From: Yersinia frederiksenii ATCC 33641
GTDB lineage: Bacteria > Pseudomonadota > Gammaproteobacteria > Enterobacterales > Enterobacteriaceae
Direction: 5' to 3'
Assembly (NCBI RefSeq): GCF_000754805.1
Contig: NZ_KN150731.1
Coordinates: 3,645,886-3,709,885, forward strand
Length of the DNA stretch: 64,000 nucleotides
In this document: positions 20,993 through 36,206 of the stretch, one piece after another
How positions within the stretch are numbered: the first letter of the stretch is position 1
How the letters are laid out: each line of letters opens with the position of its first letter
Notes under the pieces: model-generated
Told to the model about the DNA's origin: nothing
Seen by the model: the letters and a program-made list of their open reading frames with translations, nothing else
The model's database searches: none
Position numbers and translations under genes: made by a program

Positions 20993-21071
20993 TTTGCACT
21001 CCTTAAAGATAAAGGTGGCAAAGGTATCTGAGGCGGTAGCTAACAGCAGTATCCGTGGGGTACCAGTGTTA

Positions 21072-21158
21072 TCTTTCTCAAATCCCTCCGCCGGTGTTAA
21101 CCGGATCAGGTTCGACGGGTTTGCTCTCAGCAAAAACGTGCTGCGCCGTGGTTGATAC
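21072..21158 (-). promoter_or_regulatory. TPP riboswitch (THI element) of thiBPQ
   Basis: Read on the minus strand, the leader holds GCTGAGAGC, ACCCGT, GAACCTGATC, a GGTTAACACC stem and GGCGGAGGGA, the conserved core of TPP-sensing RNA. P2 can form from ACGG and CCGT. The usual GGGGTGC 5' strand is altered to GGCGCAGC, a departure from consensus. The aptamer ends about 80 bases before the thiB start; an SD-masking hairpin (20997-21018) and the absence of an intrinsic terminator suggest control at translation initiation. Confidence 0.92.
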
Positions 21159-21166
21159 AGTGTGTT

Positions 21167-21370: not shown

Positions 21371-23032
21371 TTATCCCTCTGGTGGTGTGAACCAAGCCGA
21401 TTTGAAATCAAACCAGCCGAGGGTATTCATGCGCACCCCGCGCATACTGTGCTGTCCATATAACTCAAGCCAGTGATGGAACAGCGGATGGAATTGATTC
21501 TGACTGACCAGTCGCTGGCTCCAATCGGCCATTGGCAAAGCATTATTCCGCCATAATTCAACATCGTGATGCAGTTCTTCATCCAGGCAATATTGCAGCA
21601 GCGGCAGTTCATACAAGGTCGCAAACAGGGAAAACTCCAGCGGCAGATAGAAATTTGCGCTGCCAAGCCAGATATCACTCTGCGCATCACCCTGATACCA
21701 CTGGGTGTAATCCAACACCTGTGTTTTTAAGGTGACACCATGGGCTGCCAGCAGTTGGGTTAACGTTTGGCTGATGGCATCAAATTCAGAATGGTCGCTG
21801 TAAAAAGTCAGTGTCAGTTCAGTTAGCCCGGCGGGTTTCGGCTCCAGTGCGGTGAGCCGGTTGTGATGCCAGCGCGGTAACATGCCATAAGCGGGTGACC
21901 AGTAACGTTGATAAAAGGGATCGGCAAAGCTGAGTAGGGCGACTGGCGTGATCAATTCACATAGCCAGCGGCGGATCTCTGGATGGCAGGTTTGGGGCGA
22001 GCGCTGGTCAAATAACAAAAAATAGCAGCCCTCTTCCAACCGGCTTTCCAGTTCATTTTTACTGGTGTCATCAGCCTGCAGCTGGACTCCGGTGTAAATC
22101 AGCTCATCAGACAGATCGGGTAGTACCCAGATATTGACCTCATCAATTAATGCACGAAAGCCAAAATAGTTATCGAAGGCCTGAATTTTCAATTGGCTAT
22201 GGTGATTACGAATTACGGAATAGGGGCCAGTACCAATAGGATGCCGACGAAAATCCGGCTGATTTTCCCACTCTTGCGGCAAGATCATGGCGTGCGCACT
22301 GCCCAACAACCACGGCAACCAGCTATCTGGGGTGCTGAGATGCACATCAAGCACATAGGGTGTCGGTGAGCGCACCGCCGTAATATGCGAAAACAGCGGC
22401 TGAGGGATTAATCGCGTCAGGCTGGTAATCACATCATTCATTTCCAGTTCACGACCATGGTGAAAATGAATCGCTGGGCGTAAATAAAAGCGCCAATGCA
22501 AAGGACTAATGGCCTGCCAGTGATGAGATAAGTCCGGTTCCAGTTCCCCATTTTCCTCATTTATCCGGGTCAGACCGTTAAAAATCTGCCGCACCATATG
22601 GGTTTCTGAACGACGCAGCGCGGTGCCGGGTAATAAGTTTTGTAGTGGGCGATAATAGAGCACCCGTAGGATATGTTTACCTTGCCGAAAGCTGCGCCCT
22701 AGCTGGGATAGCAGCATTTGGCGTACAGCTTTTTTATCTCCAACCAGTTGTACTAATTGGTCAATATGGTCTTGTTCCAGCAACTCTTCGGCCCGTTGCT
22801 GTTGCAATGCTAACCCGGAATAAAGGAAAGTCAGTTGTGAGCGCTTACCTCGGCCAGCTTCCGCTTGCCAGCTTAGCCAGCCCTCTTGCTGCATGCTACC
22901 TAGTAAGGAACGAACATGGCGGCGCGAGCAACAAAGCACTTCGGCCAGTTCCTGTAAGGTGGTTTCTGTGTGTTGACCATTAAAACGTTGCCAGAGGCGA
23001 ATAAACTGTTGTTGCAAGCGTGAGGCAGACAT
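21371..23032 (-). CDS. sgrR: Transcriptional activator of the sugar-phosphate stress response
   Basis: 553 residues from ATG 23032 ([15 protein letters not shown], as in E. coli SgrR). An N-terminal winged helix domain (to about residue 110, with SRRHVRSLL as recognition helix) is joined to a large solute-binding-protein domain of the oligopeptide-binding type that senses the stress signal. In E. coli SgrR activates the divergent sgrS and setA. Here the divergent neighbour is the glycyl-radical activase, 125 bases away, so that promoter is the one it is placed to control. Confidence 0.95.
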
Positions 23033-23157
23033 AAAAGAGGAACTCCGCAGCAAATTTCATCAATTTTTCTTTCCCTATATTACGCAGATACTGGTTACCA
23101 ATGAAAGTGAATAGTCACAGCGATGCCAGTGCAGTCACAGCGAATGGGAGGGGTAAG

Positions 23158-24057
23158 ATGATTTTTAATTTACAGCGTTATTCCACTCATGACGGCCCCG
23201 GTATTCGCAGTGTGGTTTTCCTGAAAGGCTGCTCGCTAAGCTGCCGCTGGTGCCAAAACCCAGAAAGTCGCTCACGCAAACCTGAGGTGCTATTTGATCC
23301 TCGCCTGTGTTTATCCGGTTGTGATTTATGCCATCAAGCTTGCCCGCAAGCGATTCAGCGCGTTGATAATCAAATTGTTATTCATCGCCAGTTGTTGGCA
23401 GAAAATGATATTCAGGCGCTGGCGGTTAGCTGCCCCAGTGGCGCTTTGACGCAGTGCGGCAACCCGATTGATATTGATGCCACCATGGACACATTATTGC
23501 GCGACTTGCCATTTTATCGGCGCAGTGGCGGCGGCGTGACGTTATCCGGCGGTGAACCTTTCATGCAACCCGAAGTGGCTGCAGAATTATTGCAGCGCTG
23601 TCATAAGCTTGGTATCCATACTACGGTTGAGTCTTGCCTGCATACGCCGTGGCGCTATATCGCCCCCTCTTTACCGTGGCTTGATTTGATGTTGGCGGAT
23701 TTAAAACATACCGATGAAAACCGTTTTCAGCAGTGGACCGGCGGTTCAGCCAAACGCGTCATGGATAACTTTCGCCAATTAGCCGCCGCAGGCACCAATA
23801 TCACGGTACGGGTGCCGCTAATCCCGGATTTCAATGCTGATAACCACTCGGTGCAAGGAATTGTTGATTTTGCCGCCGATGAAATTGGCGCGAAAGAGAT
23901 TCACTTTTTGCCTTATCACACACTGGGTATCAATAAATATTCACTGCTGGGTGAAAAATATCTGGCAGCCAGTACCCCTTTAGACTCTCCTGACCTGCTG
24001 GCCTTCGCGGAAAGTTATGCCCGTGACAAGGGCCTTACCGCAATTTTAAGAGGATGA
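23158..24057 (+). CDS. pflE: Glycyl-radical enzyme activase (radical SAM), YbiY/PflE type
   Basis: 299 residues from ATG 23158, chosen because GGGAGGGG lies four bases upstream and [15 protein letters not shown] matches the E. coli start; an ATG at 23101 is in frame but has no good ribosome site. The radical-SAM cluster motif is CSLSCRWC (C25, C29, C32). A ferredoxin-like insert follows with C51, C55, C58 and C62 and more cysteines near [13 protein letters not shown], as in activases of the two-cluster class. It installs the glycyl radical on the next gene product, four bases downstream. It functions only without oxygen. Confidence 0.93.
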
Positions 24058-24061
24058 CGCA

Positions 24062-26494
24062 ATGACCACTCTCGATTTGGTAACCTTAAGCGAACGGACA
24101 AAACAGCATAAAAACGCGCTAATTCACATTGTAAAACCGCCAGTTTGTACTGAGCGAGCGCAGCATTATACCGAAGCTTATCAACAGCATCAGGATAAAC
24201 CTTTACCTGTCCGGCGCGCGCTGGCTCTGGCCCATCACTTGCAGCAACGTACGGTGTGGATTAAAAATGATGAGCTGATTATTGGTAATCAGGCTAGCCA
24301 ATTACGCGCCGCGCCGATTTTCCCTGAATATACCGTCAGTTGGATAGAAAATGAGATTGACGAATTAGCCGACCGTCCCGGCGCGGGCTTCTCGGTCAGC
24401 GAACAAGATAAAGCGGTATTGCACCAGATATGCCCGTGGTGGCGTGGTCAAACAGTGCAAGATCGCTGCTATGGCATGTTCACCGATGAACAAAAGGCGC
24501 TGCTGGCAACCGGCATCATCAAAGCGGAAGGCAATATGACCTCCGGTGATGCGCATTTAGCGGTTAACTTCCCGCTGTTGTTGGAAAAAGGGCTGGATGG
24601 CTTACGCGCTAAAGTGACCCACCGTCGCTCTCGTCTGCAACTCACAGACTGGAGCGACCTGCATAAAGAACAATTCCTGAAAGCGATTGATATTTCGCTG
24701 GTGGCATTGAGCGAACATATTGAGCGCTATGCTGCAGTTGCGCGGCAAATGGCAGCGGAAGAAACTCGCGAATGGCGGCGGATTGAGTTGCAAACTATCG
24801 CCGTAAACTGTGACTTAATCGCCCATCAGCCGCCGCAGACTTTCTGGCAAGCTTTGCAATTGTGCTATTTCATTCAGCTAATTCTACAAATTGAATCCAA
24901 TGGCCATTCAGTCTCATTTGGTCGTCTGGATCAATATTTGTATCCGTGGTATCGCCGTGATGTTGAGCTGGAAAACACCCTGAGCCGCGAGAAAGCGATT
25001 GAGATGCTACATAGCTGCTGGCTGAAACTGCTGGAAGTGAACAAAATCCGCTCAGGCTCGCACTCCAAAGCTTCGGCGGGCAGCCCGCTGTATCAAAACG
25101 TCACTATTGGTGGGCAAAAACTGGTGCAGGGCAAGGCCATTGATGCCGTCAACCCACTCTCTTATGCGGTGCTGGAATCATGCGGGCGCTTAAGATCAAC
25201 TCAGCCTAACCTCAGTGTTCGCTACCATGCCGGAATCAGCGATGACTTCCTTGATGCTTGTGTACAAGTGATCCGCTGTGGGTTTGGTATGCCGGCCTTT
25301 AACAATGACGAAATTGTTATTCCAGAATTCATCAAGTTGGGTGTCGAGCCACAAGATGCCTACGATTATGCCGCCATTGGTTGCATTGAAACCGCGGTCG
25401 GCGGCAAGTGGGGCTATCGCTGCACCGGTATGAGTTTCATTAACTTTGCCAGAGTGATGCTGGCGGCCTTGGAGCAGGGCCGAGACGCAACCTCCGGGCA
25501 GGTATTCTTGCCGCAGAAGCAGGGGCTATCGAAGGGGAACTTCGCTGATTTTTCTCAAGTGATGGCGCAATGGGACGAACAGATCCGTTATTACACTCGC
25601 AAATCCATCGAAATCGAGTGTGTGGTGGATACCGTGCTGGAAGAAAACGCCCACGATATCGTCTGTTCCGCGCTGGTGGATGACTGTATTGAGCGCGGGA
25701 AAAGTATCAAACAAGGTGGCGCGCGCTATGACTGGGTTTCTGGTTTGCAAGTTGGGATTGCTAACTTGGGGAACAGTTTGGCGGCGGTACGTAAGTTGGT
25801 TTTTGAGCAACAACTTATTGGTCAGCAGCAACTGGCAACCGCATTAGCCAATGATTTTGCAGGTCTGAATGGCGAGCAACTGCGCCAGCATCTAATTAAT
25901 TCAGCACCTAAATATGGCAATGATGTTGATGATGTCGACCAACTGTTAGTGCGTGCTTACCAGACTTATATTGATGAATTGAAGCAATATCATAATACCC
26001 GATTTGGTCGTGGACCTATCGGCGGCACCTATTATGCCGGAACATCATCAATTTCTGCCAACGTTCCCTTTGGGGCTGCAACCATGGCAACACCGGATGG
26101 TCGCAAGGCTCACAGCCCACTGGCAGAGGGCGCAAGCCCAGCGTCTGGTACTGACCATTTAGGACCAACGGCGGTGTTTAACTCACTGTCGAAACTGCCG
26201 ACAGCCTCTATTCTGGGGGGCGTACTGCTCAATCAGAAGCTGAATCCATCGACACTGGATAACCCGCGGGATCGTGAAAAACTGATGATGATGCTGCGCA
26301 CCTTCTTTGAGGAGTATCTGGGCTGGCACGTGCAGTACAACATTGTATCGCGCGAGACCCTACTTGATGCCAAGCAGCATCCCGATCGTTACCGTGACTT
26401 AGTGGTTCGGGTTGCCGGTTATTCGGCCTTCTTCACCGCGCTATCTCCAGATGCGCAGGACGATATTATCGCCCGAACCGAACATACCCTGTAA
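24062..26494 (+). CDS. pflF: Glycyl-radical enzyme, YbiW/PflF type (probable 1,5-anhydroglucitol-6-phosphate lyase)
   Basis: 810 residues, the same length as E. coli YbiW, with near-identical blocks throughout. The radical glycine is G786 in RVAGYSAFF and the catalytic cysteine is C441 in AAIGCIE, followed by GGKWGYRC. It lacks the double cysteine of pyruvate formate-lyase, so that old annotation is misleading. From memory, E. coli YbiW was shown to open 1,5-anhydroglucitol-6-phosphate to 1-deoxyfructose-6-phosphate, which FSA aldolase then cleaves; transfer to this protein is inference from overall similarity. No fsa gene is in the window, unlike the E. coli operon. Its stop codon is followed directly by the SgrS-like RNA. 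Confidence 0.9.
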   Translation: MTTLDLVTLSERTKQHKNALIHIVKPPVCTERAQHYTEAYQQHQDKPLPVRRALALAHHLQQRTVWIKNDELIIGNQASQLRAAPIFPEYTVSWIENEIDELADRPGAGFSVSEQDKAVLHQICPWWRGQTVQDRCYGMFTDEQKALLATGIIKAEGNMTSGDAHLAVNFPLLLEKGLDGLRAKVTHRRSRLQLTDWSDLHKEQFLKAIDISLVALSEHIERYAAVARQMAAEETREWRRIELQTIAVNCDLIAHQPPQTFWQALQLCYFIQLILQIESNGHSVSFGRLDQYLYPWYRRDVELENTLSREKAIEMLHSCWLKLLEVNKIRSGSHSKASAGSPLYQNVTIGGQKLVQGKAIDAVNPLSYAVLESCGRLRSTQPNLSVRYHAGISDDFLDACVQVIRCGFGMPAFNNDEIVIPEFIKLGVEPQDAYDYAAIGCIETAVGGKWGYRCTGMSFINFARVMLAALEQGRDATSGQVFLPQKQGLSKGNFADFSQVMAQWDEQIRYYTRKSIEIECVVDTVLEENAHDIVCSALVDDCIERGKSIKQGGARYDWVSGLQVGIANLGNSLAAVRKLVFEQQLIGQQQLATALANDFAGLNGEQLRQHLINSAPKYGNDVDDVDQLLVRAYQTYIDELKQYHNTRFGRGPIGGTYYAGTSSISANVPFGAATMATPDGRKAHSPLAEGASPASGTDHLGPTAVFNSLSKLPTASILGGVLLNQKLNPSTLDNPRDREKLMMMLRTFFEEYLGWHVQYNIVSRETLLDAKQHPDRYRDLVVRVAGYSAFFTALSPDAQDDIIARTEHTL

Positions 26495-26500
26495 TTTTCT

Positions 26501-26619
26501 GTTTTAGTTGATGTAGTTAAGTGTTGTGAGTCTGCTGTAGTAGTGAGAAAACCTGTACTAAAATTTCTGAGTAATGGTGTGTTTCACCAGCCAGTGGGCT
26601 AGCCTGCTGGCTTTTTTTC
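26501..26619 (+). ncRNA. sgrS: SgrS-like small RNA (3' core clear, 5' end unresolved)
   Basis: The recognised part is 26567-26619. CTGAGTAATGGTGTG (26567-26581) matches the E. coli SgrS pairing region for ptsG (CTGAGTATTGGTGT) except for one base. CACC follows, then a terminator with AGCCAG (26589-26594), CTGGCT (26607-26612) and seven T residues, the tail Hfq needs. SgrS ends the same way in E. coli. Position supports it: between sgrR and setA, directly before setA. No SgrT reading frame is visible. The promoter is not evident; the RNA may start inside the end of pflF or be cut from its 3' end. The coordinates given start just after the pflF stop. Confidence 0.65.
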
Positions 26620-26749
26620 TTTTTTCTCTGCGTCCTTAACACCACAGCGTTGTTAGCGGCTGCAATATTTGGGTATAGAATCTATTCGGTTTTTCTATTT
26701 ATTTCTGTAGCATGATCGGCAATAGCTGTTTCTGGCGTTGGAGCCTGGA

Positions 26750-27931
26750 ATGAAATCTGCATTAACCTTTTCCCGTCGTATTAACCCGGTTTTTCTCGCG
26801 TTTTTTGTAGTGGCCTTTCTTTCCGGTATTGCTGGGGCTTTACAAGCACCGACGTTAAGCTTGTTTCTCAGCACCGAAGTGAAAGTGCGCCCGCTGTGGG
26901 TTGGGCTGTTTTACACCGTCAATGCCATCGCCGGGATCAGCGTCAGTTTTGTGTTGGCAAAGCGTTCAGATTTGCGCGGCGATCGCCGCAAACTTATTTT
27001 GGTCTGCTATTTGATGGCGGTGGGAAACTGTCTGTTATTTGCTTTTAATCGTGATTACCTGACATTAATCACTGCGGGTGTGCTGCTTGCCGCTGTCGCC
27101 AACACCGCAATGCCACAGATTTTTGCCTTGGCGCGCGAGTATGCCGATAACTCGGCCCGTGAAGTAGTGATGTTCAGCTCGATTATGCGTGCTCAGTTAT
27201 CATTGGCCTGGGTTATTGGCCCACCGCTGTCATTTATGCTGGCGCTAAATTATGGCTTTACCCTGATGTTCTGCATCGCCGCCGGTATTTTTGTGCTCAG
27301 TGCCTTGGTGGTGTGGTTTATTTTGCCTTCAGTGCAGCGGGTGGAGCCAGTGGCAGATACGCCAGCCATTGCTCAGGGTAGCTTATTTGCCGATAAAGAC
27401 GTCTTGCTGCTGTTCATTGCCTCAATGTTGATGTGGACATGCAATACCATGTATATCATTGATATGCCACTCTATATCACGGCGAGCTTGGGGTTGCCTG
27501 AGCGGTTGGCGGGCTTATTGATGGGAACCGCCGCCGGGTTGGAAATCCCTATTATGCTACTGGCGGGCTATTCGGTTCGGCGTTTTGGTAAGCGCAAAAT
27601 TATGCTCTTCGCGGTACTGGCTGGCGTGCTGTTTTACACCGGACTAGTACTGTTTAAATTCAAATCTGCGTTAATGCTATTACAGATTTTTAATGCCATC
27701 TTTATTGGTATCGTCGCCGGTATTGGCATGCTCTATTTTCAGGATTTAATGCCGGGCAGGGCGGGGGCCGCTACCACTTTGTTTACCAATAGCATTTCTA
27801 CCGGGGTGATTCTGGCTGGGGTGCTACAAGGGGTCTTGACGGAGACTTGGGGGCATAATTCGGTCTATGTGATGGCGATGATCCTGGCTATTATCTCACT
27901 GATCATTTGTGCGCGGGTAAGAGAAGCTTAG
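26750..27931 (+). CDS. setA: Sugar efflux transporter SetA
   Basis: 393 residues (E. coli SetA 392) from ATG 26750, with GGAG six bases upstream. This major-facilitator protein has twelve spans; GALQAPTLSLFLS, LAKRSDLRGDRRKL (loop 2-3 signature) and FQDLMPGRAGAATTLFTNS match SetA. SetA exports glucose analogues and lactose, and in E. coli it is transcribed downstream of sgrS as part of the glucose-phosphate stress response. SetB is the close alternative, but the position next to the sgr genes favours SetA. Confidence 0.92.
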   Translation: MKSALTFSRRINPVFLAFFVVAFLSGIAGALQAPTLSLFLSTEVKVRPLWVGLFYTVNAIAGISVSFVLAKRSDLRGDRRKLILVCYLMAVGNCLLFAFNRDYLTLITAGVLLAAVANTAMPQIFALAREYADNSAREVVMFSSIMRAQLSLAWVIGPPLSFMLALNYGFTLMFCIAAGIFVLSALVVWFILPSVQRVEPVADTPAIAQGSLFADKDVLLLFIASMLMWTCNTMYIIDMPLYITASLGLPERLAGLLMGTAAGLEIPIMLLAGYSVRRFGKRKIMLFAVLAGVLFYTGLVLFKFKSALMLLQIFNAIFIGIVAGIGMLYFQDLMPGRAGAATTLFTNSISTGVILAGVLQGVLTETWGHNSVYVMAMILAIISLIICARVREA

Positions 27932-27959: not shown

Positions 27960-29222
27960 TTAATAGGTCGGCAACAGGTTGAAGCTGGACAGAATATGGG
28001 CGATGGCATTAATCGCCCCAAACAGTAAAATCAATACAATCAATGGAGTGCCGCCCCAAACGCGATACAGCGGGCTACCAAAGCGCTTACGGGAAGCTCG
28101 GGCCAACAGTGCTGGCACAATGGCGGCCCAGACAGTGGCAGCCAGCCCGGCATAGCCAATGGCGTAAATAAAGCCATCTGGATATATCAACCCACCCAAT
28201 ATCGGCGGCAAGAATGTTATGACAGCCGTTTTCCCCCGGCCAAAGCGGCTGTCGTCAAATTTAAATAAATCAGCAAGATAATCAAATAATCCTAATGTCA
28301 CGCCTAGGAATGAACTGGCAACGGCGAAGTTTGAAAACACCGTCAGTAGCAGATCCATCGACGAGCTTTGTAAGATCCCGCCCAAGGCACTCACCAGCAC
28401 ATCAATATTTCCGCCCTGACTGGCTATTTCGCGAAATTGTGGTCGCGGAATATTCCCCATGGTGCCGACCAACCAGATGATATAGAGCGTCAGGGCGAGC
28501 AGCGTACCAATCAGCAGACAGTTGCGGATGCGGCGGGGATTTTTGCCGTAATACTTCATCAGGCTGGGGACGTTACCGTGATAACCAAATGAGGCCAGAC
28601 AAAATGGTAGAGTCATCAGCAGGTAGGGCAGGTAGCTGGGGTTGGCTTCACTGAGATTGAACAATTTCACCGGCTCGACGTGCCCTAACAACCCACCAAA
28701 GGTCATAAAGAAGGTGAGGATCTTGGCACCCAGCACAATGGTAGTCATTCGGCTTACCGCGGTGGTACTGAGCCAAACAATAAAAGCGACGAATAATGCA
28801 AAGAATAGACCGCCAAGCCGAGCCGGAAAGTCTATTCCCATTCCGCGCAGGGTATGTTGAATCACTGAGCCGCTGGCAGAAATATAGGCGTAAGTCAGAA
28901 TATAGAGCACAAAGGCGACAGTCAGGCCATTGACGATATTCCAGCCGTTACCCAGTAAATCTTTGGTGATGGTGTCGAAACTGGCACCGGTGTGGTAGTT
29001 GAGGTTGGCTTCGAGGATCATCAATCCGGAATGAAGCATACAAAACCAGGTGAAAACCAGAACAGCAATAGACCAATAAAACCAGATCCCTGACATAACA
29101 ACGGGTAATGAAAACATCCCTGCGCCGACGATGGTGCCGGCAATAATCATTGCACCACCGAGCAGAGAAGGATTTTTAATTTTTGCGGCTGTGACCTGAT
29201 CTTCTAGTGTAGTTTGGGCCAT
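27960..29222 (-). CDS. mtr: Tryptophan permease, Mtr type
   Basis: 420 residues with about eleven membrane spans (hydroxy/aromatic amino-acid permease family). It is clearly closer to E. coli Mtr than to Tna[40 protein letters not shown] and [11 protein letters not shown] match Mtr blocks. It imports tryptophan and indole. It lies 108 bases after tnaA on the same strand, in the place TnaB holds in the E. coli tna operon, so it probably supplies tryptophan for tryptophanase here and would be induced with it. Confidence 0.92.
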
Positions 29223-29281
29223 AGTAGGGTGTCCTCGTGTGGTTTTACCACTTATAGAGGTAGCAATTTGGTCGCTGTATT

Positions 29282-29305
29282 CCCCCTGTCTGTGCGGCAG
29301 GGGGC
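29282..29305 (-). repeat. Intercistronic hairpin between tnaA and mtr
   Basis: CCCCCTG (29282-29288) pairs with CAGGGGG (29298-29304). No T run follows on the minus strand, so it is more likely an mRNA-stabilising or attenuating hairpin within the operon than a terminator. Confidence 0.5.
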
Positions 29306-29330
29306 GTGCTCTTGGAGTCGCGGTTGCCGA

Positions 29331-30731
29331 TTATTCGATTGGTTTTAATCGAGCAACAAAGTGGCGCAGAACAGGAGGTTCGTAGGTGAAGGTGAGGCCT
29401 TTGATTTCCTCGGCCCGTGATTTGAGTGAAATCAGGGCATCGGCAATATAGTCCATGTGGTCATTGGTGTAGACTCGACGCGGGATAGTCAGGCGTAGCA
29501 GTTCCAATGGGGATGGTTTTTGTTTGCCGGTTTCTGGATCTCGACCTAATAGCAATGAACCGATTTCAACACTGCGAATACCGGCTTCCAGATACAATGC
29601 ATTGTTAAGCGCCTGTGCCGGGAATTGCTCAGCCGGAATATGCGGCAGCAAAAGTTTGGCATCAACAAACACCGCGTGGCCGCCAGTAGGGTACTGAATA
29701 GGAATGCCCCCAGCGCGCAGACGTTCGCCCAGATACTCCACTTGACCGATACGGTAAGTCAGGAAGTCTTCATTCATCCCTTCTTCCAGCCCGATGGCCA
29801 GTGCTTCCATGTCGCGACCCGCCAGGCCACCATAAGTTACAAAGCCTTCCATAGGGACACAACGGATGCGAACGTCGTTGAACAAGTCCTCATCAGTGCG
29901 GAAACAACACAAACCGCCAATATTAACCATCGGATCTTTTTTGGCTGACATGGTCAGCATGTCACCATACTGGTACATCTCCAGAATGATCTCTTTGATC
30001 GATTTATCGCCATAACCCGGTTCACGTTGCTTAATAAACCAGGCGTTTTCACAGAAGCGGGCTGAGTCAATGACCACCGGAATATTATGCTGCTGAGCGA
30101 TACGATACACTTCGCGCATATTACTCATTGATATCGGCTGTCCACCGGAGCTGTTACAGGTGACGGTGGTAATAATAGACACCACGTTTTCAGCACCATG
30201 TTCTGCAATGGTGGCTTTCAGCTGATCTAAGTCGAAATCGCCTTTCCAGTCATAATAAGAGACGGTATCAAAGGCTTTTGGTGTGACCACGTTAATGGCT
30301 TTGGCGCCATTCATCTCGACGTGGGCGGCAGTGGTATCAAAGTGGAAGTTAGAAATAAATACCGGCTTCTTACCGCCACCTGCTTTTTGTTTTTTTGCAA
30401 TCAGGCAAGGGAATAGGATTTGCTCTGCACCACGGCCTTGGTGTGTCGGGATAGTAAATGGGTAGCCAATTAGTTTTTTCACTTGGTCACACAAGTGATA
30501 ATAGTTACGTGAACCGGCATAGGCTTCATCACCCATCATTAATCCAGCCCACTGACGGTCACTCATGGCACCGGTGCCTGAGTCAGTCAGTAAATCAATA
30601 TAGACATCTTCGCTAGGCAGTAAGAATGGGTTATAACCTGCCTCAATTAATGCTTTCTCACGATCTTCCCGGTTGGTCATCCGAATATTTTCTACCATTT
30701 TAATACGGAAGGGTTCAGGAATGCGTTTCAT
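29331..30731 (-). CDS. tnaA: Tryptophanase
   Basis: 466 residues (E. coli TnaA 471). This PLP enzyme splits tryptophan to indole, pyruvate and ammonia. The PLP lysine is the second lysine of MSAKKD (K265). Tyrosine phenol-lyase is the close relative, and three specificity positions separate the two: TPL has Thr124, Arg381 and Phe448, while this protein has Asp132 (FDTT), Ile390 (RSVEIGS) and His457 (LRHF), the tryptophanase residues. The tnaC leader upstream and Mtr downstream agree. A good ribosome site (GGAG) lies ten bases before the ATG. Confidence 0.93.
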
Positions 30732-36030: not shown

Positions 36031-36059
36031 AAAAAAAAACCCGCGCATTTGCGCGGGCT
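36031..36059 (-). terminator. Attenuator terminator of the leu operon
   Basis: CCCGCGC and GCGCGGG (36040-36057) form a strong GC stem with a four-base loop, followed on the minus strand by nine T residues (36039-36031). It lies between leuL and leuA, where the leucine attenuator terminator must lie. Confidence 0.93.
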
Positions 36060-36079
36060 TGTTAATCTTGATGACTGAA

Positions 36080-36163
36080 TCAGTTCTGATTTCCGTCCAC
36101 CAACATACCGCGCAAGAGAGATGCGTTAAGTAGTAGGCCTAGTAGACGGGTTGAGTAGAACAT
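36080..36163 (-). CDS. leuL: leu operon leader peptide
   Basis: 27 codons from ATG 36163 to TGA 36080. It is rich in leucine: CTA CTA, glycine, CTA CTA CTT, then CTC TTG and a further TTG. The rare CTA codons sit where stalled ribosomes would sense low leucyl-tRNA. LLNAS.LRG and the V.G.Q tail resemble the E. coli LeuL. Stalling here would favour an antiterminator over the hairpin at 36031-36059. Confidence 0.93.
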
Positions 36164-36206
36164 AATTTTTCAGTTTCTCATCAGTTAAATTATTGCGTTG
36201 CCTAAA

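Follow-up and report, generated by a model that had tools for sequence, protein, structure and literature searches.

Why should an operon for a glycyl-radical enzyme lie inside a glucose-phosphate stress locus? The question is raised by a stretch of 64,000 nucleotides from Yersinia frederiksenii ATCC 33641 (contig NZ_KN150731.1, positions 3,645,886 to 3,709,885; hereafter the window), in which the activase gene pflE and the enzyme gene pflF (together pflEF) are found between sgrR, which encodes the regulator SgrR, and setA, which encodes a sugar efflux transporter, next to the 3' end of the small RNA (sRNA) SgrS. The most probable answer, to which sequence comparison lends a probability of about 0.7, is that pflEF moved into sgrS, that the SgrR-dependent sgrS promoter now drives a pflE-pflF-SgrS transcript, and that SgrS has become the 3'-end RNA of this message.

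An operon inside sgrS

At the equivalent site of Escherichia coli K-12, the annotation gives sgrR, sgrS/sgrT and setA without pflEF, in agreement with the order that an earlier note on this DNA had given for E. coli. For the window, the same note had proposed the order sgrR, pflEF, SgrS-like RNA and setA, which coordinates and profile matches bear out, and a gap of 125 bases between sgrR and the activase gene, which is correct for the pflE ATG at 23158, the codon that aligns with residue 1 of E. coli YbiY. The placement between sgrR and SgrS thus stands, but the operon is not merely beside sgrS: it sits inside it, in the place of sgrT. As read from the sequence, sgrS is split by a metabolic operon while its promoter and its regulatory 3' end are both kept, because the promoter block precedes pflE and the seed and terminator follow pflF. 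The distance from the sgrS promoter to the SgrS seed is here about 3.4 kb. The features of the locus are the following, with the strand in brackets.

21371..23032 (-): sgrR, glucose-phosphate stress response transcription regulator (NCBIfam NF010149, 1049 bits, cut-off 476; Pfam SgrR_N, 4.3e-45)
23033..23107 (+): ancestral sgrR-sgrS promoter block, now upstream of pflE (identity to Y. nurmii, genome G021 and E. coli)
23087-23092 (+): -10-like GATACT in the promoter block, picked by eye
23100..23157 (+): predicted pflE 5' leader with ribosome-binding site GGGAGGGG (sequence comparison)
23158..24057 (+): pflE (ybiY type), radical-SAM activase of the PFLE_PFLC type, 299 aa (TIGR02494, 337.8 bits)
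24062..26494 (+): pflF (ybiW type), probable 1,5-anhydroglucitol-6-phosphate lyase, 810 aa (homology to E. coli YbiW; Gly_radical domain)
26495..26566 (+): variable spacer from the pflF stop to the SgrS seed, 72 nucleotides (nt) (alignment across Yersinia)
26567..26618 (+): SgrS functional 3' end, with seed, hairpin and terminator (sub-gathering RF00534 match, terminator, ptsG pairing)
26567-26579 (+): SgrS seed CTGAGTAATGGTG, invariant and pairing with ptsG
26576-26588 (+): SgrS hairpin GGTG/CACC
26589-26612 (+): SgrS terminator stem, followed by a U tract
26750..27931 (+): setA, sugar efflux transporter (TIGR00899, 531 bits, cut-off 522.3; 70% identical to E. coli SetA)

The longest open reading frame (ORF) would place the start of pflE at 23101, a position that coincides with the inferred transcription start; homologues begin at 23158, and the longer version was rejected. 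SgrR and PflF of the window are each 99% identical to their Y. alsatica counterparts. In Y. rohdei (L006/L100), short tandem repeats GATTGTTTATCAAAG extend the sgrR-pflE gap to 261 bases.

Distribution of the arrangement

In a sample of 25 Yersinia genomes, with adjacency judged from the listed coordinates, pflF is directly beside sgrR in 21, so the adjacency of pflEF and sgrR is not chance. Named loci were anchored on SgrR, using the best 80 of 378 matches with flanks of up to 9 kb, a sample in which distant genera are under-represented and which includes neither Y. pestis nor Y. pseudotuberculosis, neither being specifically looked for. Eight of these loci, all from Yersinia, hold pflEF between sgrR and setA; within the flanks, it is found there neither in Y. 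similis and Y. nurmii nor in the 70 loci of other genera.

In samples drawn across the order (16/197 genomes each), few genomes carried these genes. A further sampling covered the family, where YbiW is present in 107 of 295 genomes (E <= 1e-250). sgrR lies within 4 kb of it in three genomes, all Yersinia, on the contig of YbiW but 228 kb or more away in 36, and on another contig in 65; in three more (G287, G434, G448) its position is not among the matches listed. An sgrR-adjacent YbiW was found in none of the 101 genomes of the two larger groups, although a contig break between neighbours is possible for the 65. The comparison across genera proposed in the earlier note places the arrangement in Yersinia and in none of the sampled loci of another genus, E. 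coli K-12 included.

The promoter block upstream of pflE

The E. coli sgrS is annotated to start 68 nt from the sgrR ATG. The first 75 bases past sgrR in the window are identical to those of Y. nurmii and G009 at 64/75 positions each, to G021 at 65/75, to Y. similis at 62/75 and to E. coli at 53/75, against shuffle maxima of 32-34 of 75, and homology with E. coli sgrS would put the transcription start at about 23100. All 21 pflEF-bearing Yersinia (19 loci of the main comparison, with L127 and L128 added) carry this block at its ancestral offset from sgrR, followed by pflE. Since the ancestral sgrS promoter block is directly upstream of pflE, control of pflEF by SgrR is likely, and the same position strengthens, though it does not prove, the idea of a shared function for the locus.

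The 3' end of SgrS

When the window was scanned with Rfam at the gathering threshold, no SgrS match was returned. Below it, RF00534 gives 23.7 bits (gathering 37; E 9.4e-5 for a 301-base stretch) over model positions 96-232 with the 5' part cut off, a score that is expected to be low because this copy would be 5'-truncated. SgrS of Yersinia is described in reviews as 5'-truncated, about 85-140 nt long and devoid of SgrT (PMC4021124, PMC4585118, PMC3493969, PMC4202721).

The retained part is conserved. Seed, hairpin and terminator are present directly 3' of pflF in all 21 pflEF-bearing Yersinia, where the stretch TTTCTGAGTAATGGTG, which contains the seed, is identical throughout, the hairpin pairs upstream of the terminator are invariant, and 96.7% of the terminator pair cells are kept. 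For this terminator, the paired cells, doubly changed cells and covariation score were reached by none of 500 shuffles and the level of further pair types by 35; pairs changed on both sides number three against a shuffled mean of 2.4, with 212 of the 500 shuffles equal. With the ribosome-binding site of ptsG in this genome, the seed pairs at 13/13 positions, one of them G-U, as did none of 5000 shuffles. A comparison of SgrS and ptsG by duplex energy is uninformative, with 35 of 300 shuffles as good, for which free pairing of the U tract is the probable cause.

Around this main SgrS target, a second SgrR-like gene (C1:1550656-1552452, a 605-codon frame whose product is about 50% identical to SgrR over the N-terminal part) is convergent with ptsG (1549157-1550587), and a match of its type is listed in 17 of the 25 Yersinia genomes. 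A third SgrR-like protein of this genome (4111747-4113417) is 29% identical.

SgrS might have its own promoter, in the 3' end of pflF or in the spacer, so that only pflEF would use the old sgrS promoter. In favor of such a promoter, reviews describe SgrS of Yersinia as a separate RNA some 85-140 nt long, detected in Y. pestis and Y. pseudotuberculosis by deep sequencing (PMC4021124, PMC4585118). This may apply to the pflEF-bearing species only in part, since Y. similis, a relative of those two, lacks the insertion. Against it, a promoter scan of 26250-26780 gave no promoter-like site, and no second sgrS-type promoter was seen before the seed. The spacer is unconserved and as short as 32 nt (the seed begins 32-104 nt past the pflF stop in the 21 Yersinia), and synonymous variation is not reduced at the 3' end of pflF, whose last 20 codons rank 404th lowest of 803 windows and whose last 15, 30, 40 and 60 codons are likewise unremarkable. 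An own promoter is thus unlikely. Scanning also revealed no terminator in the spacer, and together with the lack of a promoter-like site and of synonymous constraint this favors transcription that would continue past pflF to the SgrS terminator.

The enzyme pair

Whether the enzyme belongs with YbiW was set beforehand as a point on which the earlier note could fail, and the grouping holds. PflF and E. coli YbiW share 85% identity across 810/810 residues, and PflE is 64% identical to YbiY in an alignment that begins at YbiY residue 1. In a phmmer search of the PDB, PflF scores 1589-1595 bits with three YbiW-type chains (8id7, 8yjn, 6xs4), against 547 bits with glycerol dehydratase, 484 with PflD and 137 with pyruvate formate-lyase; assignments to the last two types were rejected on these scores. 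The Pfam Gly_radical domain is matched at 5.3e-31, and the translation holds both RVAGYSAFF and GCIE, which we take to be the glycyl-radical and thiyl motifs.

YbiW is reported to convert 1,5-anhydroglucitol-6-phosphate (AG6P) to 1-deoxyfructose-6-phosphate anaerobically, and pathways of the YbiW type to enable growth of E. coli on 1,5-anhydroglucitol (1,5-AG) (PMC12441222). Of what the earlier note said on the enzyme, the degradation of AG6P by YbiW stands, but the description of AG6P as a dead end is too simple, given that E. coli grows on 1,5-AG (PMC12441222). By orthology, it is probable that PflF of the window acts on AG6P as YbiW does. The pflF frame is open in all 21 pflEF-bearing Yersinia, and the gene looks to be under strong purifying selection, because the other 20 proteins are 96-99% identical to PflF of the window even though differences are found at four-fold sites in 46% of pair comparisons.

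Origin of the operon

The relatives of the operon point to its former position. In two Serratia-type loci (L131, L132), rnb and a gene for a CstA-like transporter are followed by fsaA, the divergent pflE-pflF, yciT-like and aldolase-like genes and finally pyrF (rnb, CstA, aldolase and pyrF being named by eye), and four more (L133-L136) likewise carry fsaA, pflEF and yciT. Among loci with 1.5-kb flanks, 13 of 15 have fsaA and pflEF in divergent orientation, as do all six of the longer ones. The window's genome has the same neighborhood (L124) but without pflEF, a gap of 159 bases separating fsaA from a YciT-like gene; there is no fsaA at its pflEF locus. Adjacency of fsaA and yciT (144-378 bases) without pflEF is found in 19 of the 20 pflEF-bearing Yersinia that have FSA, and FSA as such (about 70% identical to FsaA) in 24 of the 25 Yersinia genomes. 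Because these Yersinia keep fsaA-yciT without pflEF where Serratia-type relatives hold it, pflEF was probably relocated from this site into sgrS in an ancestor of most Yersinia. Both the occurrence and the direction of the move are inferred from sequence comparison, and a single relocation within the lineage is the simplest account.

The putative control elements of the old site seem to have been left behind. All seven fsaA-pflE gaps hold a YciT-like box TTTCATTCGAAAG, scoring 11-13 of 13, and an FNR-like box TTGATNNNNATCAA, scoring 9-10 of 10, here regarded as candidate YciT and FNR sites. In the 19 fsaA-yciT gaps, the YciT-like box scores 12-13 of 13 and the FNR-like box, which is weaker there, 8-9 of 10. 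In the 21 sgrR-pflE gaps, the best YciT-like score is 8-9 and the best FNR-like score 6-7, with shuffle means of 7.7 and 6.5, and the predicted pflE leader (23100-23157) holds neither box above shuffle level. The FNR-like box of the E. coli fsaA-ybiY gap scores 9 of 10. YciT of E. coli is reported to bind near ybiV, ybiY and fsaA (PMC8464067) and to be enriched near the start of ybiYW, an operon expressed anaerobically (PMC12132413).

In a PflE+PflF tree, the 21 sgrR-linked pairs form one clade (1.000) beside the Serratia-type fsaA-linked pairs (split 0.982). This is the grouping that descent predicts, and it argues against the alternative that the old-site operon was lost and that pflEF then entered the sgrS locus by horizontal transfer, as does the old site itself, which retains fsaA, yciT and the boxes without pflEF. 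E. coli-type ybiYW-fsaA cassettes do get acquired, as the Y. similis copy shows by its 89% identity to E. coli YbiW and its tree position, and the early-branching Yersinia lack YbiW although they have FSA, beside which no YciT-like gene was found (none within the 4-kb FSA stretches of the three early-branching genomes and Y. similis), so that loss followed by transfer, for instance from a close relative, keeps some appeal; on balance, it is improbable.

Proposed mechanism

If pflEF was relocated in this way, the operon would have entered at the former SgrT coding part, with the SgrR-dependent sgrS promoter upstream of it and the SgrS 3' end, which does the base pairing, downstream. Upon build-up of a glucose-phosphate analogue, SgrR would fire the old sgrS promoter and a pflE-pflF-SgrS message would be made. 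SgrS would be freed from its 3' end, with RNase E acting at the A/U-rich AAAAUUUCUG as the most likely agent, and would block translation of ptsG, while PflE and PflF would, under anaerobic conditions, remove AG6P or a similar hexitol phosphate. The enzyme requires the absence of oxygen, whereas the action of SgrS on ptsG does not. SgrR control, co-transcription, processing and the substrate in vivo are all predictions from sequence. AG6P cannot be isomerized the way glucose-6-phosphate is, and for that reason it is a candidate natural stress signal for SgrR, by analogy with alpha-methylglucoside-6-phosphate.

A more far-reaching proposal, which falls somewhat short of even odds, is that the insertion rebuilt the whole SgrS/SgrT gene: the RNA would be cut from the 3' end of an enzyme mRNA, the enzyme would replace SgrT, and one SgrR signal would bring about removal of the analogue, a stop to its uptake and, by read-through, production of SetA. 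A redundant system standing in for SgrT has been considered for Y. pestis (PMC3493969). As for the efflux pump that the earlier note included in such a unit, a review reports that a test of whether SetA exports alpha-methylglucoside gave no support for this (PMC4021124).

Alternatively, pflEF could be at this site by chance and serve catabolism of 1,5-AG together with FSA encoded elsewhere, with SgrR uninvolved. The wide occurrence of FSA in Yersinia means that the pathway could run in trans, and E. coli is reported to grow on 1,5-AG by such a pathway (PMC12441222). This explanation does not account for an operon that stands directly behind a conserved promoter block, without the YciT-like and FNR-like boxes of the old site, and that is intact at sgrR in 21 of the 25 genomes; it is accordingly considered rather unlikely.

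Absence of SgrT and observations against relocation and SgrR control

An SgrT homologue is found in three of the 25 Yersinia genomes (G009, Y. nurmii (G016) and G021), all early-branching, without YbiW and with a full-length SgrS that contains the SgrT ORF; none was found in the remaining 22, that of the window included. Some of the known SgrS homologues are likewise described as lacking SgrT (PMC4021124).

Several observations weigh against relocation into sgrS and control by SgrR. In the sgrR loci of Serratia sp. Ag1 and of Erwinia, Pantoea, Edwardsiella and Rouxiella, the seed is too near the promoter for an SgrT ORF and pflEF does not intervene, so sgrT seems to have been lost without pflEF as well, and its absence is therefore not by itself a sign of functional replacement. 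A consensus scan of the promoter block found no sigma-70 promoter, although activator-dependent promoters are often missed by such scans. The conserved block also contains the sgrR promoter, and part of its conservation may serve sgrR. At the old site, one pflEF-bearing genome (G014, locus L154) has no YciT-like gene beside FSA, another (G002, which by its sgrR coordinates is Y. aleksiciae) has no FSA match, and the YciT-like box of the E. coli fsaA-ybiY gap reaches no more than 9 of 13 on the strand that was scanned. It is also odd, for an oxygen-labile enzyme, that no FNR-like box is present at the new site while E. coli ybiYW is expressed under anaerobic conditions and bound by YciT. Finally, Y. 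similis has neither sgrT nor an sgrR-linked pflEF.

Past the promoter block, the Y. similis leader scores higher against the pflE leaders of 14 of 21 species than any of 200 shuffles, mostly in the register shared with the pflE leaders, and does so for neither of two early-branching Yersinia; its 3' flank exceeds the null for only one of 21 species. These results fit either an ancestor that had pflEF and lost it or a state that predates the insertion, and the position of Y. similis in the species tree is weakly supported (0.307 and 0.804). Its PflEF pair groups with that of E. coli in the PflE+PflF tree (1.000). This pair is part of a cassette of the E. coli fsaA-ybiYW type that also includes a gene for a DeoR-type regulator (L086, G022:C29), evidently a separate acquisition, which adjoins ORFs resembling, by eye, a contractile injection-type tail cluster.

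Neighboring features

The gap between sgrS and setA is variable in Yersinia. In Y. thracica (L007), two small RelB/RelE-like toxin-antitoxin ORFs, named by eye, stand between the SgrS terminator and setA, and the gaps of L004, L005, L006, L008, L010, L032 and L048 contain repeated palindrome-like elements CACCCGAATCACTTACTTGAGTAAGCTCATCGGGATT and variants of them, which are multicopy in some gaps. On the other side of setA, a tryptophan permease gene and tnaA (window 27960-30731) separate it from leuD, the permease being present at this site in only some of the fetched Yersinia loci. Two further RNA elements of the window exceed the Rfam gathering score: a thiamine pyrophosphate (TPP) riboswitch upstream of tbpA (21066-21160) and a leucine operon leader (36033-36179).

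Comparison with known systems

Reviews state the truncation of Yersinia SgrS and the absence of SgrT, in the passages that describe them, without giving a cause (PMC4021124, PMC4585118, PMC3493969, PMC4202721). The insertion would offer a concrete one for the short, SgrT-less SgrS of most Yersinia, and some early-branching species are shown here to retain SgrT. In the one open-licence literature collection searched, which does not include the SgrS survey of Horler and Vanderpool (2009), no report was found that links sgrR or sgrS with pflEF or ybiYW. The SgrR signal has been studied mostly with artificial analogues, and AG6P is pointed to here as a candidate natural inducer.

With the E. coli K-12 SgrR-SgrS/SgrT-SetA locus, the Yersinia locus shares sgrR divergent from the promoter block, the seed, hairpin and terminator of SgrS, and setA as the next gene. 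It differs in having pflE-pflF instead of an SgrT ORF, and thus some 3.4 kb between promoter and seed. With E. coli ybiYW-fsaA, which is YciT-bound, it shares the same enzyme pair in the same order (85% and 64% identity); in Yersinia, however, the pair is uncoupled from fsaA and from the YciT-like and FNR-like boxes and stands behind the sgrS promoter block.

A third comparison is with Hfq-dependent sRNAs derived from 3' untranslated regions, such as CpxQ, SdhX and SroC. Common to these and to the Yersinia SgrS are a conserved seed and a Rho-independent terminator at the end of an mRNA, preceded by a variable spacer after the stop codon. Here, by contrast, the insertion of an operon would have turned a former stand-alone sRNA gene into the 3' end of an mRNA, with processing that is putative; if true, the locus would be an example from nature of an independent sRNA converted to a 3'-end sRNA.

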